Assembly: GCF_900129555.1 (NCBI RefSeq)
Contig: NZ_FQWC01000003.1
Coordinates: 558,001-622,000 of the forward strand
Direction: 5' to 3'
DNA from: Flavobacterium defluvii
GTDB lineage: Bacteria > Bacteroidota > Bacteroidia > Flavobacteriales > Flavobacteriaceae
DNA: 64,000 nt
How positions within the stretch are numbered: position 1 is the stretch's first letter; each line of letters starts with the position of its first letter. A model generated the notes under the pieces. The model was not told the DNA's origin and did not search any database. It saw only the letters and a list, made by a program, of their open reading frames with translations. The position numbers and the translations under genes are program-made. Below are positions 45,976-51,235 of the stretch, piece after piece.

Positions 45976-46200
45976 ATGGCAAAAGTAATAATGGAGAGTT
46001 GGAGAGAAGGTATTAAAATGGTATCTCTAACTAAATTACAACATGAAAAGCTTGGTTTGTCTTTGCTTGAATCTAAAACAAATGCTGATATGCTTTTAGA
46101 AGATCAGATAATAATTTTAGAAATTGAAGATGAAAGTGTGGCTCTAGAATTTCTTGAAGAAGCGGATAGATTTGGTGTAAATTGTAGACTTTTAAGTTAA
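45976..46200 (+). CDS. Small L7/L12-C-domain-like protein
   Basis: 74 residues; an internal Met at position 7 is an alternative start. I do not know a named family. The spacing GIKMVSLTKLQHEKLGLSLL, ESK, then EDESVALEFLEEADRFGVNC ending RLLS follows the ribosomal L7/L12 C-terminal domain (KxxVIKxVRExTGLGLKEAK ... AxxxxxxLExAGAxVEL), a fold reused in small regulators. That likeness is my inference from the pattern. The gene lies 50 bases before a toxin-antitoxin pair, with which it may share a transcript. Confidence 0.6.
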   Translation: MAKVIMESWREGIKMVSLTKLQHEKLGLSLLESKTNADMLLEDQIIILEIEDESVALEFLEEADRFGVNCRLLS

Positions 46201-46249
46201 TTAATTTGATTAAATTTGTAACATTGATAATACTAGTAATACTGATAAT

Positions 46250-46456
46250 ATGCAAATCAAAAACCTATCTAAGTATAGTAATGCTGAAAAAATTGTTTTA
46301 GCAGAGCAGTTGTGGGACAGTGTTTCTAAAGATGATTTAGAAATTTCTGATGACGTAAAAAGGGAATTAGATATTCGTATACAAAATTTAGAAGAAGGAA
46401 AAACAGAATTATATTCTTGGGATGAGGTTAAAGCTCATTTAAAATCTTTGCGATAA
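46250..46456 (+). CDS. Antitoxin, addiction-module component family
   Basis: 68 residues. KYSNAEKIVLAEQLWDSVSK near the N-terminus, ELDIRIQNLEEGK and the C-terminal YSWDEVKAHLKSL are hallmarks of the short PF09720/TIGR02574 antitoxins, which pair with RelE/ParE-like toxins. The toxin gene starts on the base after its TAA stop. The antitoxin should cap its toxin through the C-terminal helix and probably represses the operon. Confidence 0.88.
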   Translation: MQIKNLSKYSNAEKIVLAEQLWDSVSKDDLEISDDVKRELDIRIQNLEEGKTELYSWDEVKAHLKSLR

Positions 46457-46756
46457 GTGTATAAACTTCATTTTGTAAAAGAAGCTTTATTTGATATTGA
46501 GGATATTGTTCTTTGGTATGAAGAACAAAGAATTGGGCTTTCTTACGATTTTGAACTTTGTTTGGAAGCGGGAATTGATTCTATTTCAAGAAATCCTGAT
46601 TTATTTCAAAAAAAGTATAAAAACATAAGAATGCATTTCATTTCAAGATTTCCTTATGGAATCCACTATCGAGTAGAAAAAGATCAAATAATCGTAATTG
46701 GTATTTTTCATACTTCTCGATCTCCTAAAAATTGGTCGAAAAGATTAAAGTTGTAA
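46457..46756 (+). CDS. RelE/ParE-family toxin
   Basis: 99 residues. The GTG at 46457 follows the antitoxin TAA with no gap, so a non-ATG start is the most economical reading. The fold pattern (YKLHFVKEALFDIEDIVLWY, ISRNPDLFQKKYKNIRMHFI, RFPYGIHYRVEKDQIIVIGI, FHTSRSPKNW) is that of ParE/RelE toxins, with the C-terminal FHTSRxP run conserved. I cannot say whether it cleaves mRNA or poisons gyrase. A repeat at 46761-46798 stands just beyond the stop. Confidence 0.88.
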   Translation: MYKLHFVKEALFDIEDIVLWYEEQRIGLSYDFELCLEAGIDSISRNPDLFQKKYKNIRMHFISRFPYGIHYRVEKDQIIVIGIFHTSRSPKNWSKRLKL

Positions 46757-46760
46757 AAAA

Positions 46761-46798
46761 AACTTAGGACCTTAGTATCTCAGAATCTCAGAACCTTT
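46761..46798. repeat. cttaggaccttag repeat
   Basis: AACTTAGGACCTTAGTATCTCAGAATCTCAGAACC..., a single copy of the sequence that forms the arms of the nested repeat at 22050-22179. It is placed straight after the toxin gene. Confidence 0.6.
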
Positions 46799-46911
46799 CA
46801 AAAAAAACAATTATAAATATCTCATTTTAAGCCGATTTTTTTATATTATCATACAAAACCTGCTAAATTTGTTAAGAAATCCTTTTTTGTTTCATAAAAT
46901 GCAATCTTTTT

Positions 46912-46942
46912 TTTGGTGCACTAAAAATAATTTATACATTCG
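46912..46942 (+). promoter_or_regulatory. Promoter of the Phe leader/pheA operon
   Basis: TTTG (46912-46915), 19 bases, TACATTCG (46935-46942): the Bacteroidota layout with one change in the -7 element. Transcription would start about 5-8 bases later, some 25 bases before the leader-peptide ATG. Confidence 0.65.
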
Positions 46943-46971
46943 CAGAGAATTTAAAACAAAACACAAACAAA

Positions 46972-47052
46972 ATGGCAAGTAACCGTTTTTATTTTAGCAA
47001 CAATTTTTATTTCTTCTTTAGTAGAAGTCAGGATTGTGCTATGGTTATTTGA
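46972..47052 (+). CDS. Phe/Tyr-rich leader peptide of the pheA operon
   Basis: A 26-codon open frame, too short for routine gene finders: it begins MASNRFYFSNNFYFFFSRSQ and ends DCAMVI before a TGA at 47050. Six codons are Phe and two are Tyr, with FYF and FYFFF clusters (46987-47019). It starts about 25 bases after a consensus-like promoter and ends 67 bases before pheA. The 5' arm of the antiterminator lies inside its last third. This is the classic layout of an attenuation leader: a ribosome that stalls at the Phe codons for lack of charged tRNA-Phe leaves the arm free. Confidence 0.9.
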   Translation: MASNRFYFSNNFYFFFSRSQDCAMVI

Positions 47053-47092
47053 GAAAAATTTTAAGACAAATAAAACTAATATACAATCCTGA
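47028..47092 (+). promoter_or_regulatory. Antiterminator pairing of the Phe attenuator
   Basis: TCAGGATTGT (47028-47037, inside the leader peptide) is perfectly complementary to ACAATCCTGA (47083-47092). The second arm is also the left arm of the terminator (47085-47113), so the two structures exclude each other. A ribosome that reads to the leader stop codon at 47050 covers the first arm and lets the terminator form. Confidence 0.88.
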
Positions 47093-47113
47093 TGCAAATC
47101 AGGATTTTTTTTT
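47085..47113 (+). terminator. Attenuator terminator upstream of pheA
   Basis: AATCCTGAT-gcaa-ATCAGGATT followed by T's (nine in a row, 47105-47113): a perfect 9-base stem with a strong T run, just 6 bases before the pheA ATG at 47120. A terminator directly in front of the first gene of an operon only makes sense as a switch. Confidence 0.9.
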
Positions 47114-47119
47114 GACTAT

Positions 47120-47947
47120 ATGACAACGAAAATTGCAATACAAGGTATAAAAGGTTCATTTCATCATCAGGTTGTGAAGGAGTATTTCTCTGAAAATGTG
47201 GATATTGATGAATGTTTGTCTTTTGAAGAATTGATCGATAGCCTTATTGCCGGAAAATCTGATCAGGCCGTTATGGCGATCGAAAATTCAATTGCAGGGC
47301 CAATTATTCCGAATTATGCTTTGATTGACAAGAATAATTTACACATTATTGGAGAGCATTATTTAAACATTCAGCAGAATTTAATGGCCCTAAGGGGTCA
47401 GAAAATTGAGGATATAAAAGAAGTTCATTCGCACCCAATGGCACTTTTGCAGTGTATGGATTTCCTGAAACAATATCCAAATATTAAATTGATTGAGGAT
47501 AAAGATACAGCCGAAACAGCAAGAAGAATTCAGGAAAAACAATTAACCGGAATTGCTGCAATTGCAAGTGTAACAGCTTCTGAAATGTACGATCTTGATA
47601 TTATCGCGTCATCGATTCAAACGATCAAAAACAATATGACGCGTTTCGTAATCATTAAAAAGCAAAATTCATTTTTGCCGGAAAGCGAAATCAACAGAGC
47701 GTCAATCAAATTTGAATTGGATCATAAAAGAGGAAGCTTAGCGGCGGTTTTGAATGTAATGAGCGATTGCAAACTGAATTTGACCAAAATCCAGTCGCTT
47801 CCAAAAATTGAAACACCTTGGAAATATTCATTCTTCGTAGATGTAACATTCGAGAAATACGAGGATTTTGCAAAAGCCAAAACGTTATTAAACATTATGG
47901 CAGAATATTTCAAAGTGTTGGGAGAATATAAAAATACTAGACCTTAA
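47120..47947 (+). CDS. pheA: Prephenate dehydratase
   Basis: 275 residues. It turns prephenate into phenylpyruvate, the committed step to phenylalanine. The periplasmic-binding-like catalytic domain has IAIQGIKGSFHHQVVKEYFS, AVMAIENSIAG and the catalytic Thr in NNMTRFVII. The C-terminal ACT domain reads KRGSLAAVLNVMSDCKLNLT and TKIQSLPKIETPW. The Phe-binding motif of the family, ESRP, is here QSLP, so feedback by Phe may be altered. There is no fused chorismate mutase; that activity is in the fourth gene of the operon. Expression is governed by the upstream attenuator (46972-47113). Confidence 0.95.
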   Translation: MTTKIAIQGIKGSFHHQVVKEYFSENVDIDECLSFEELIDSLIAGKSDQAVMAIENSIAGPIIPNYALIDKNNLHIIGEHYLNIQQNLMALRGQKIEDIKEVHSHPMALLQCMDFLKQYPNIKLIEDKDTAETARRIQEKQLTGIAAIASVTASEMYDLDIIASSIQTIKNNMTRFVIIKKQNSFLPESEINRASIKFELDHKRGSLAAVLNVMSDCKLNLTKIQSLPKIETPWKYSFFVDVTFEKYEDFAKAKTLLNIMAEYFKVLGEYKNTRP

Positions 47948-48043
47948 GTCTTAAAGTTGAAAAGTCAAAAGTCTTAAAGTCAAAAATAGAAAGTTAAAAA
48001 AGAGCCTAAGCCTAAAGCTTACGGCCTAAAGTAAATAAAAACA

Positions 48044-49189
48044 ATGATTACAACAGCAAAACGATTAGACACAGTTGAAGAATACTACTTCTCATCAAAA
48101 TTAAGAGAAGTTCGTCAGTTGATGTCTGAAGGAAAACCGATCATCAACATGGGAATTGGAAGTCCAGATTTGAGTCCGTCAAAAGCAGTAATTGAAGCAG
48201 TCGCTGCAGCAATTCAAGACGAAAACGGACATGGCTATCAAAGCTATCAGGGATTACCGGAAATGAGACAGGCGATGGCGGATTTTTATCGTGATCAGTT
48301 TGGTGTTGAAGTGAATCCGAATAATGAAATTTTACCTCTTATGGGTTCAAAAGAAGGAATTATGCACATTTCGTTAGCATTTTTAAATGAAGGCGATCAC
48401 GTTTTGATTCCGAATCCGGGTTATCCAACTTATACTTCGGTAACCAATTTGGTTCAGGCAGTTCCGGTTTATTATGATCTAAAAGAAGAAAATGGATGGG
48501 AACCGGATTTTGAAGCTTTAGAAAAATTAGATCTTTCGAAAGTAAAAATTATGTGGTTGGGTTATCCGCATATGCCAACAGGAGCGAGAGGAAGTTTAGC
48601 GTTATTTGAAAAATTGGTTGCTTTTGCTAAAAAACACAATATATTATTGATCAACGACAATCCGTATAGTTTTGTTTTGAATGATAATCCGATGAGTTTA
48701 TTGCAAGTTGAAGGTGCGAAAGATGTGGCTTTAGAATTGAATTCACTTAGCAAAACCTTCAACATGGCGGGCTGGAGAGTCGGAATGGTTTTAGGAAATC
48801 CTGAAATTATCGATGCAGTTCTAAAAGTAAAAAGCAACATGGACAGCGGAATGTATTACGGAATTCAAAAAGGTGCCATTGCAGCTTTGAAATGTGATAA
48901 ATCCTGGTTCGAAGACCAAAACAAAATTTACAGACGCCGAAGAGAATTAACAGAGAAACTAGCAGAAAAGCTAAACTGTAAAGTATATAAAGAAGGAGTT
49001 GGGCTTTTTGTTTGGGCAAAACTTCCAGAAGGAATTGAATCAGCAGAAAAGTTCATTGACGAAATATTATATGAGAAACATATTTTCATTACACCGGGAA
49101 CAATCTTCGGAAGTAATGGTGAAGGATATATCAGATTCTCATTATGTGTGAAAGAAGAAAAAGTACAAGAAGCGATAGATCGATTTTAG
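48044..49189 (+). CDS. PLP aminotransferase of the Phe/Tyr operon
   Basis: 381 residues, aminotransferase class I/II. Signatures: INMGIGSPDLSPSKAVIEAV, GYQSYQGLPEMRQAMADFYR, LIPNPGYPTYTS, and the PLP-lysine segment NSLSKTFNMAGWRVGMVLGN. In this operon it most likely transaminates phenylpyruvate and hydroxyphenylpyruvate to Phe and Tyr, although the sequence is also close to LL-DAP-type and aspartate/alanine enzymes. It lies between pheA and tyrA, 96 bases after pheA. Confidence 0.9.
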   Translation: MITTAKRLDTVEEYYFSSKLREVRQLMSEGKPIINMGIGSPDLSPSKAVIEAVAAAIQDENGHGYQSYQGLPEMRQAMADFYRDQFGVEVNPNNEILPLMGSKEGIMHISLAFLNEGDHVLIPNPGYPTYTSVTNLVQAVPVYYDLKEENGWEPDFEALEKLDLSKVKIMWLGYPHMPTGARGSLALFEKLVAFAKKHNILLINDNPYSFVLNDNPMSLLQVEGAKDVALELNSLSKTFNMAGWRVGMVLGNPEIIDAVLKVKSNMDSGMYYGIQKGAIAALKCDKSWFEDQNKIYRRRRELTEKLAEKLNCKVYKEGVGLFVWAKLPEGIESAEKFIDEILYEKHIFITPGTIFGSNGEGYIRFSLCVKEEKVQEAIDRF

Positions 49190-49196
49190 ATTTCAG

Positions 49197-49242
49197 ACTT
49201 GCGAACCTTGCGTAAATCCTTTGCGAACTTTGCGGTTAAATA
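49197..49242. repeat. gcgaactttgcggttaaata repeat, copy 2
   Basis: ACTTGCGAACCTTGCGTAAATCCTTTGCGAAC... ending in TTTGCGGTTAAATA. It matches 38506-38552 and stands in the gap between the aminotransferase gene and tyrA, 42 bases before the tyrA start codon. It does not form a strong hairpin. Confidence 0.65.
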
Positions 49243-49283: not shown

Positions 49284-50141
49284 ATGAAAGTATACGTAAT
49301 AGGAATAGGGTTAATAGGCGGTTCGATGGTGTTAGACATCAAAGGACGTTATCCTGATGCGACTATTTTAGGAATCGATAGTAAAGAACAGCATTTGCAG
49401 CAGGCAATTGATTTGGGAGTTATCGACGAAGCAGGAAGTTTTGAAGATTTACAAAAAGCCGATTTTGTAATTGTTTCGGTTCCGGTAGATGTAGCATTGA
49501 CGCTTCTGCCAAAAGTTCTGGATTTAGTTGGAGATAAAACAATTGTTTTTGAAGTAGGATCTACTAAAAAACCAATTTGCGAAGCAGTAGCCAATCACCC
49601 GAAAAGAAGAAATTTTATTGCCACGCATCCAATTGCAGGAACAGAATTTTCGGGGCCATCGGCAGCAATAAGAGGTTTGTTCCAAGGAAAGACAAACATT
49701 ATATGTGAAGTCGAAAAGACTGCTTTTAAATTACAGGAAAAAGCATTAAATCTTTTTACTTCAATCGGAATGAGGATTCGATATATGGACCCGACTTCTC
49801 ACGATAAACACATTGCTTACGTTTCGCATTTATCGCACATTAGTTCGTTTATGCTCGGAAAAACAGTGATGAATAAAGAAAAAGACGAACAGGATATTTT
49901 TGATATGGCGGGAAGTGGATTTGAAAGTACTGTTCGTTTGGCAAAAAGTTCACCAGCGATGTGGACACCAATTTTTAAGCAGAATAAAGAACATGTTTTG
50001 GAAACTTTAGAAGCTTATATCTCAAACCTGAGTCGGTTTAGAGATTTGTTGAAAGAAGAAGATTATAATGCCATTTTTGAAGAAATGGAAAGCACAAATA
50101 AAATTAAAGAGATATTAAACGGATTAACAATTAAAAAGTAA
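49284..50141 (+). CDS. tyrA: Prephenate dehydrogenase
   Basis: The frame is open from 49221, but the ATG at 49284 starts the Rossmann fold directly (MKVYVIGIGLIGGSMVLDIK); 285 residues. It oxidises and decarboxylates prephenate to 4-hydroxyphenylpyruvate for tyrosine. Typical segments: VIVSVPVDVALTLLPKVLDL, FEVGSTKKPICEAVANHPKR, THPIAGTEFSGPSAAIRGLF and the catalytic His region SHDKHIAYVSHLSHISSFML. No ACT domain is present. Third gene of the operon. Confidence 0.94.
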   Translation: MKVYVIGIGLIGGSMVLDIKGRYPDATILGIDSKEQHLQQAIDLGVIDEAGSFEDLQKADFVIVSVPVDVALTLLPKVLDLVGDKTIVFEVGSTKKPICEAVANHPKRRNFIATHPIAGTEFSGPSAAIRGLFQGKTNIICEVEKTAFKLQEKALNLFTSIGMRIRYMDPTSHDKHIAYVSHLSHISSFMLGKTVMNKEKDEQDIFDMAGSGFESTVRLAKSSPAMWTPIFKQNKEHVLETLEAYISNLSRFRDLLKEEDYNAIFEEMESTNKIKEILNGLTIKK

Positions 50142-50152
50142 ACTATAAAACA

Positions 50153-51235
50153 ATGGAAAATAAAAAAGAAATGAGAAAGTGGTTAGAAGATTTCAATTTA
50201 AATCACCCACTTGTGATAGCTGGACCATGTAGTGCAGAAACTGAAGATCAGGTATTGAAAATTGCTCATGAATTAAAAGATTCAAAAGTTAGTGTTTTCA
50301 GAGCAGGAATCTGGAAACCAAGAACGCGTCCGGGAGGATTTGAAGGTGTTGGTGAAATCGGATTAAAATGGTTACAAAAAGCAAAAGCTGAAACTGGTTT
50401 GTTAATGGGAACTGAAGTTGCTACTGCAGCTCACTGTAAACTGGCTTTAGAACACGATATCGACGTATTATGGGTTGGTGCACGTACAACAGCAAACCCT
50501 TTCGCAGTTCAGGAAATTGCTGATACATTAAAAGGAACTGATAAAATTGTTTTGGTAAAAAACCCAGTAAACCCGGATTTAGCTTTATGGTTAGGTGGTG
50601 TTGAGCGTTTACACATGGCTGGAATTGAGAAATTAGGTGTTATTCACAGAGGTTTTTCTACTTACGAAAAAACAAAATACAGAAACATTCCAGAATGGCA
50701 GATTGCTATCGAATTACAAAACAAATTCCCTGATTTACCATTAATCATCGATCCATCTCACATTACAGGAAACCGTAATATGATTTTTGAAGTAACTCAA
50801 GAGGCTTTAGATTTGAACTACGATGGTATGATTATCGAAACGCACTACGATCCAGACAACGCTTGGTCAGATGCTGCGCAGCAAGTAACTCCAGATTCTT
50901 TGAAACAAATCATCAAAGATTTGACAATCAGAAAAACGGATGATACTACAGATGAATACAGTCAGAAAATGAAAAAACTAAGAGCTAACATCGACGTTCT
51001 TGATGCTAACTTATTAGAACTTTTAGGAAAACGTATGAAAGTAGCTGATGAAATTGGTCAGGTGAAAAAAGATGCAAACGTTGCGATTCTTCAAAACAAC
51101 CGTTGGAACGAAATCTTAGGAAAAATGATTCTTGAAGGTGAGAAAAAAGGTCTTACTGAAGAGTTCGTTTTAAGAATGTTCAAAGCTATTCACCAGGAAA
51201 GTATTGGTCACCAAGAGAAAATTTTCAACGCATAA
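50153..51235 (+). CDS. Bifunctional DAHP synthase/chorismate mutase
   Basis: 360 residues in two domains. Residues about 1-260 are a 3-deoxy-7-phosphoheptulonate synthase of the KDO8P-synthase-like type (LVIAGPCSAETEDQVLKIAH, FRAGIWKPRTRPGGFEGVGE, GARTTANPFAVQEIAD, VKNPVNPDLALWLGGVERLH, LIIDPSHITGNRN). Residues about 270-355 form an AroQ-type chorismate mutase helix bundle (KKLRANIDVLDANLLELLGK, RMKVADEIGQVKKDANVAI, WNEIL). In such fusions the mutase acts as the sensor for feedback by prephenate or aromatic acids. The gene follows tyrA by 11 bases and closes the Phe/Tyr operon; its terminator is at 51336-51375. Confidence 0.94.
   Translation: MENKKEMRKWLEDFNLNHPLVIAGPCSAETEDQVLKIAHELKDSKVSVFRAGIWKPRTRPGGFEGVGEIGLKWLQKAKAETGLLMGTEVATAAHCKLALEHDIDVLWVGARTTANPFAVQEIADTLKGTDKIVLVKNPVNPDLALWLGGVERLHMAGIEKLGVIHRGFSTYEKTKYRNIPEWQIAIELQNKFPDLPLIIDPSHITGNRNMIFEVTQEALDLNYDGMIIETHYDPDNAWSDAAQQVTPDSLKQIIKDLTIRKTDDTTDEYSQKMKKLRANIDVLDANLLELLGKRMKVADEIGQVKKDANVAILQNNRWNEILGKMILEGEKKGLTEEFVLRMFKAIHQESIGHQEKIFNA

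Follow-up and report, generated by a model that had tools for sequence, protein, structure and literature searches.

Upstream of pheA in Flavobacterium defluvii lies what we take, with a probability of roughly 0.93, to be a ribosome-mediated transcription attenuator of a Phe/Tyr operon. It would sense Phe, and probably Tyr as well. Both the mechanism and, in outline, its occurrence are already known, and the leader described here is a widely conserved example, not a new kind of mechanism. All coordinates below, unless given with another locus, refer to the window, that is, the whole stretch of 64,000 nucleotides (nts) that was analyzed, and all elements of the leader region are on its + strand.

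The region starts with a Bacteroidota sigma-type promoter (46912-46942), in which TTTG (46912-46915), which we take to be the -33 element of Bacteroidota promoters, is separated by 19 nts from TACATTCG (46935-46942). The end of the promoter is followed, after a gap of 29 nts, by the ATG (46972) of a 26-codon leader ORF, MASNRFYFSNNFYFFFSRSQDCAMVI, which is closed by TGA at 47050-47052. Six Phe and two Tyr codons, eight Phe/Tyr in total, are found in this ORF. The candidate control codons form the clusters Phe-Tyr-Phe (codons 6-8, 46987-46995), assigned from the sequence and the stall model described below, and Phe-Tyr-Phe-Phe-Phe (codons 12-16, 47005-47019), for which spacing was considered as well. 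Three helices, in part mutually exclusive, can be drawn. Helix 1:2, the protector (46976-47051), is made up of two stems, the outer at 46976-46986/47041-47051 and the inner at 46996-47014/47023-47040, the latter pairing leader codons that include the Phe run with a segment that includes arm 2. Arm 2, the 5′ arm of the antiterminator (TCAGGATTGT, 47028-47037), forms ten Watson-Crick pairs with 47083-47092 (ACAATCCTGA) in arm 3 (47083-47093), whose partner is either arm 2 (antiterminator, 2:3) or arm 4 (terminator, 3:4). The intrinsic terminator (47085-47113) consists of a nine-pair stem (47085-47093/47098-47106) and nine Ts (47105-47113), which end six bases upstream of the pheA ATG at 47120. 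The fold of 46945-47119 had a z-score of -3.3, and 2 of 200 shuffled sequences folded equally well. The promoter, the 26-codon leader with its FYF and FYFFF clusters, the perfect ten-base complementarity and the terminator had all been named in a preliminary description of this DNA, and direct reading returned each of them at the same positions, although the full ten antiterminator pairs proved atypical among relatives.

The operon behind the leader contains, in this order and all on the + strand, a pheA-type prephenate dehydratase (PDT, 47120-47947), a class I/II aminotransferase (48044-49189), a tyrA-type prephenate dehydrogenase (49284-50141) and a DAHP synthase-chorismate mutase fusion (50153-51235). 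These assignments are based on Pfam domains; the ACT domain of the PDT scored under the Pfam cut-off, and the start of the dehydrogenase was taken as ATG 49284, with an alternative TTG upstream at 49221. The same domains bear out the earlier statement that the operon makes Phe and Tyr. F. anhuiense, with 99% identity of the pheA protein, is among the nearest named relatives, as are several others at the same level. Two neighbouring small ORFs of 68 and 99 amino acids (46250-46756), which share the strand of the pheA promoter and directly precede it, look like a toxin-antitoxin pair.

According to the proposed mechanism, a short leader RNA would be transcribed from the promoter, and translation of its ORF would start independently of a Shine-Dalgarno sequence. 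When Phe-tRNA and Tyr-tRNA are ample, the ribosome would pass codon 16 and either cover arm 2 or leave behind helix 1:2, which locks arm 2. With arm 2 unavailable, arm 3 would pair with arm 4 and RNA polymerase would halt at the T tract, and the terminated RNA would end about 165 nts from the presumed start. When Phe or Tyr is scarce, a stall within codons 7-15 would disrupt helix 1:2 and free arm 2, which would then capture arm 3 ahead of the synthesis of arm 4, and transcription would enter pheA; polymerase pausing is presumed in this scheme. The absence of a Shine-Dalgarno sequence is the rule, as none of five Shine-Dalgarno-like 5-mers was found in the 20 nts upstream of the leader ATG in any of 197 regions (197/197). 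The preliminary description had put forward the same attenuation logic, of which the release of arm 2 by a stalled ribosome agrees with the comparative data and the folding model, but helix 1:2 was missing from it. Its statement that a ribosome reading to the TGA hides the arm holds only approximately in this species. Under the footprint assumed in the model below, 3 of the 10 arm bases are covered when the ribosome is at the TGA (47050), and full cover is reached at codons 19-24. That statement suits better the species whose leader stops just upstream of arm 2.

Switching was modelled by constrained folding, in which 15 nts 5′ and 11 nts 3′ of the first A-site base were kept unpaired as the ribosome footprint. 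In these thermodynamic estimates, which include no pseudoknots, proteins or kinetics, the probability of 2:3 in the full-length RNA was 0.94, 0.98 and 0.93 for stalls at Tyr7, Phe8 and Phe12, and 0.78, 0.83 and 0.59 at Tyr13, Phe14 and Phe15, and it was low at Phe6 (0.16), Phe16 (0.02) and codons 17-27 (0.00). The terminator had a probability of 0.95 at codons 17-27, and the same value without a ribosome. Stalls within codons 7-15 are predicted to give antitermination, and from codon 16 onward the prediction is termination. This switch zone holds six of the eight aromatic codons, in addition to the Ser-Asn-Asn codons between the clusters, and because Tyr7 and Tyr13 are inside it, Tyr should be sensed too. 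Codon 6 switched solely under a longer footprint, and at codon 12 the minimum-energy structure keeps the terminator while the ensemble favours 2:3. Before arm 4 is made, the modelled probability of 2:3 is high, 0.69 without a ribosome and 0.67 with a ribosome at the TGA, which means that termination would require either that helix 1:2 forms first or that the RNA rearranges later. When the stall model was applied to 197 of 217 regions, it separated the ribosome states imperfectly. Stall and stop differed by more than 0.2 in only 139 of the 197, and stall and no ribosome in 66; the genus medians for arm 3 being held by upstream RNA were 0.86 for a stall on the codon that opens the last run, 0.24 for a ribosome at the stop codon and 0.79 without a ribosome.

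The pheA protein was found in 216 of 299 Flavobacterium genomes, and 110 upstream regions out of these 216 (30 returned loci and 80 picked down the ranked list) formed the genus set. A Phe/Tyr leader together with a terminator was detected in 109 of the 110, the sole miss (L097) being cut by a contig end. In the family sample, 277 of 299 genomes (three of them Flavobacterium) had the protein. The set from other genera comprised 67 regions, of which 27 were returned loci and 40 came from the matches listed, and 66 of the 67 gave the same result. Like the genus set, it leans to closer relatives. The result was also the same in all five of the additional regions whose proteins were less similar, of which two come from Flavobacterium. 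A conserved short ORF rich in Phe and Tyr codons, which the preliminary description had suggested looking for by upstream alignment, is thus present in nearly all genus and family regions. At the class level, the protein was matched in 73 of 246 genomes, 64 of them outside the family, and 35 of these 64 were examined. The strict leader and terminator test was passed by 17 of the 35. A looser listing, in which distant ORFs in L290 and L315 were set aside as unrelated, gave a Phe/Tyr leader in 22, some without a nearby terminator, and even by this listing no Phe/Tyr leader was found in 13 of the 35.

Because the leaders were chosen by their Phe/Tyr content, their richness in these residues is partly circular, and shuffled sequences and other residue pairs served as the control. 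None of 1670 dinucleotide shuffles, which for the genus were drawn from 60 of the 110 regions, passed the leader and terminator test, and ten other residue pairs gave 0-2 matches each when the same test was applied to the 35 class-level regions. Both Phe and Tyr were present in all 160 distinct leaders, with both synonymous codons in use (TTT 548, TTC 302, TAT 427 and TAC 96). A TAnnTTTG promoter box is given in the cited part of PMC9723704. The box TAnnTT[TCA]G was located 12-75 nts upstream of the leader ATG in 104 of 108 genus, 68 of 70 family and 11 of 19 class regions, compared with 140 of 985 shuffles that kept only base content.

The covariance model R1 matched all 67 family regions (E up to 0.0063). 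At an E cut-off of 0.001, 225 of the 299 genus genomes gave an R1 match, that is, 208 of 216 genomes with PDT versus 17 of 83 without. Eight genomes with PDT gave no R1 match, and in seven of these the enzyme is a distant one (E 9.0e-64 to 1.8e-71), the value for the eighth being 2.2e-121. Among the 17 genomes that had a match and no PDT, three (G145, G161 and G251) had strong matches (E up to 4.6e-9). The lack of a match to the window-type prephenate dehydratase in 83 of 299 Flavobacterium genomes (61 of the 253 of good quality) may reflect Phe auxotrophy or a replaced enzyme.

The leader codons could be irrelevant if the hairpin were a constitutive, partial terminator accompanied by a chance or non-regulatory short ORF, a reading that we consider very unlikely. 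It draws on the alignment A1 of 37 non-redundant genus sequences, in which the terminator alone is well conserved (333 of 333 cells paired) and is also the only structure that RNAalifold predicted for the whole alignment, helix 1:2 and the antiterminator being absent. Perhaps a single consensus cannot hold exclusive helices, and given this output the helices were counted separately. Against the constitutive terminator, one base of arm 2 changes together with arm 3. Terminator column pair 139:153 was U-A in 19, C-G in 17 and U-G in 1 of the 37 sequences, and the arm-2 base opposite column 139 formed A-U in 17, G-C in 17 and G-U in 3. The partners of column 139 in arms 2 and 4 both switch, and therefore the three arms change together there. 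Covarying stems had been suggested as a check in the preliminary description, and this joint change bears them out in part. Pairs changed on both sides numbered one in the antiterminator (reached by 253 of 500 shuffles) and two in the terminator (reached by 37 of 500).

Six of the nine terminator pairs and four of the ten antiterminator pairs are invariant in the genus alignment and thus neutral as covariation evidence. In the antiterminator, one of the ten pairs of the window (columns 65:140) is shared by just 2 of 36 relatives, the conserved core being eight pairs (columns 67-74), and 86.8% of the cells were paired versus 84.7% after shuffling. Helix 1:2 was paired in 79% of cells compared with 42-53% when slid. 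Two-side changes were seen there in 5 pairs (reached by 228 of 500 shuffles) and 17 cells (reached by 3 of 500), and sliding by one column gave 9 pairs and 16 cells. When the 37 leaders were folded one by one, nearly all formed a long hairpin of the 1:2 type, with a different one in L079 and L098.

The spacing of the elements also argues against a constitutive terminator. In all 173 regions analyzed, the best partner of arm 3 begins 6-15 nts past the last run of Phe/Tyr codons, and at most 10 of 200 shuffles, with only base content kept, were as good. The distance from this partner to the end of the stop codon ranged from -32 to +4. Constant spacing between the run and arm 2, combined with a variable distance to the stop codon, is what the stalled-ribosome model requires. 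In part the constancy comes from shared descent, yet the arm sequences differ among clades, with terminator stems such as AATCCTGAT, GTCTCGAT, GTCCCG and others, while the Phe/Tyr runs are kept within this narrow distance; the rarity of other residue pairs at the leader site points the same way. These 173 were taken from the 177 genus and family regions after dropping L061 and L238 (no leader by script), L097 (truncated contig) and L227 (no terminator by script), of which L227 and L238 match R1, and L061 and L238 pass the leader and terminator test.

Less likely still is a T-box or riboswitch, in which the leader RNA would bind uncharged tRNA or a metabolite directly and the ORF would be incidental. 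An extended RNA structure does lie upstream of the operon, as this reading requires, but Rfam matched none of these in window positions 46000-48000 at E up to 5, or in the pheA regions of five relatives at E up to 1, although the latter search did recover a SAM riboswitch from another locus of the genome, and membership in these classes was rejected for this reason. Phe and Tyr are each encoded by both of their synonymous codons, which also favours the identity of the amino acid over that of the base. Across the genus and family, leaders are 17 to 30 residues long. In the short-leader species (18-19 residues), the ORF stops just upstream of arm 2 and its C-terminal part is gone, while the RNA is retained; the downstream GGATTGTGCTATGGTTATTTGA stretch is nearly constant despite being out of frame, and this constancy points to selection on RNA pairing. 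We assign a probability close to nil to a functional small protein as the product of the short ORF, with the terminator ending a small transcript of its own, since the NRFYFSN motif, although strongly kept across much of the genus, is found in a peptide of such variable length and dispensable C-terminal part, and the conserved N-terminal codons AATAACCG form pairs with the hairpin's 3′ end.

The attenuator can be compared with several known systems. The enterobacterial pheA leader (pheL) has a Phe-rich leader ORF and competing antiterminator and terminator structures. The Flavobacterium leader shares with it these features and the control of pheA, and differs in its many Tyr codons, in an operon that makes Tyr too, and in having no Shine-Dalgarno-like motif. 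The enterobacterial trp leaders are likewise of similar build. Membership in the Rfam family Phe_leader (RF01859) was rejected, the window scoring 19 bits where the gathering score is 55; two relatives (L211 and L308) gave 30.9 and 32.5 bits, both also under 55. This sub-threshold score is compatible with independence from the enterobacterial leader, and since none of the pheA leaders scanned reached an Rfam gathering score, a family model for them is missing or too narrow. A comparative paper by Vitreschak and others from 2004 reportedly contains candidate attenuators in Bacteroidetes/Chlorobi. Bacteroid-trp (RF01692), a trp peptide leader of Bacteroidetes, is a switch of this type from the same phylum; unlike this family, which is named for Trp, the pheA leader gave no match to it in window positions 46000-48000 at E up to 5, while the anthranilate synthase leader of the same genome matched at 74.7 bits. 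Bacteroid-trp is listed for Bacteroidetes in the cited part of PMC2864571.

In Table 7 of PMC1173090, taken from Merino's website, a putative attenuator is given for B. thetaiotaomicron pheA > hisHb > aroAIbeta-aroQ > tyrA. It resembles the present case in phylum and in the kinds of genes behind the attenuator, but it is predicted only, with no leader peptide or codons described in that part of the paper, and the gene order is slightly different. Short ORFs in long 5′ UTRs of B. thetaiotaomicron, reminiscent of leader peptides, are described in a passage of PMC7366714. For F. psychrophilum, the cited passages of PMC9723704 report strong clues for leader-peptide attenuation upstream of amino-acid operons, and a structured 5′ element of pheA that is conserved in other Flavobacteriaceae genera and had no Rfam hit. 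Given this report and the B. thetaiotaomicron entry, the novelty of the element is smaller than the preliminary description suggested. Section 19 of that paper gives no leader, codons or arms, which Table S7 or SI D9 may hold. Among the top matches listed by our literature search, whose scope left supplements and subscription papers outside, no paper was devoted to the Flavobacterium pheA leader. What PMC1173090 and PMC9723704 hint at is extended by the present analysis to almost every Flavobacteriaceae region sampled and to part of the class. The analysis also offers a precise, testable model of aromatic amino acid control in Flavobacterium, in which codons and arms are named and a switch zone and a short RNA are predicted.

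The leader could also be used to probe, in a simple way, how transcription and translation are coupled in bacteria that initiate without Shine-Dalgarno sequences. A broader idea, to which we would give slightly less than even odds, is that the switch is an old, Bacteroidota-wide attenuator that arose separately from the proteobacterial pheA leader and works as a Phe/Tyr OR gate on a single joint operon, with Shine-Dalgarno-free initiation. If this is true, it would, together with the leaders of the same genome for his, ilv, trp and thr genes, and perhaps that rich in Met/Cys, imply transcription-translation coupling at these promoters; such coupling is, to our knowledge, little studied in Bacteroidota.

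Other leader candidates with terminator-like hairpins were seen in the same genome and add to the case for the attenuator. These are MISNQLHHHHLHYCSQAMC upstream of hisG, MNNTWWWKNLRQTS upstream of the anthranilate synthase gene, MQISIIITSVVVVNVFSTSASGMV upstream of a 557-residue ORF taken for a putative ilvD, and a Thr-rich leader upstream of the homoserine dehydrogenase gene. The his, ilv, trp and thr candidates are on L122 (2414-2531), L123 (8725-8847), L124 and L125, the last two on the minus strands. Their arm pairing, estimated roughly and without controls, was weak for trp and thr.

In addition, a Met/Cys-rich leader, MKTIAGKNMMCCSVMQMCIQPCCCQK, with a terminator was observed upstream of a PLP enzyme of Cys/Met metabolism (minus strand of L126, ORF 36-116 and terminator 147-177 of the reverse complement; also L316). 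Met/Cys-rich ORFs of diverging sequence were present in all 30 loci (L316-L345) that were the best matches in a 61-genome genus sample, and a terminator in 28 of the 30, counts made without a chance control. A transcription attenuator sensing Met and Cys is, as far as we know, unusual, and none in Bacteroidota was named in the titles or abstract starts of the papers listed by our search. This leader may be more novel than that of pheA. The same stretch carries a SAM riboswitch (RF00162, 78 bits, L126:3877-3985, minus strand), and thus two kinds of control, riboswitch and Met/Cys leader, may act on the sulfur amino acid genes there.
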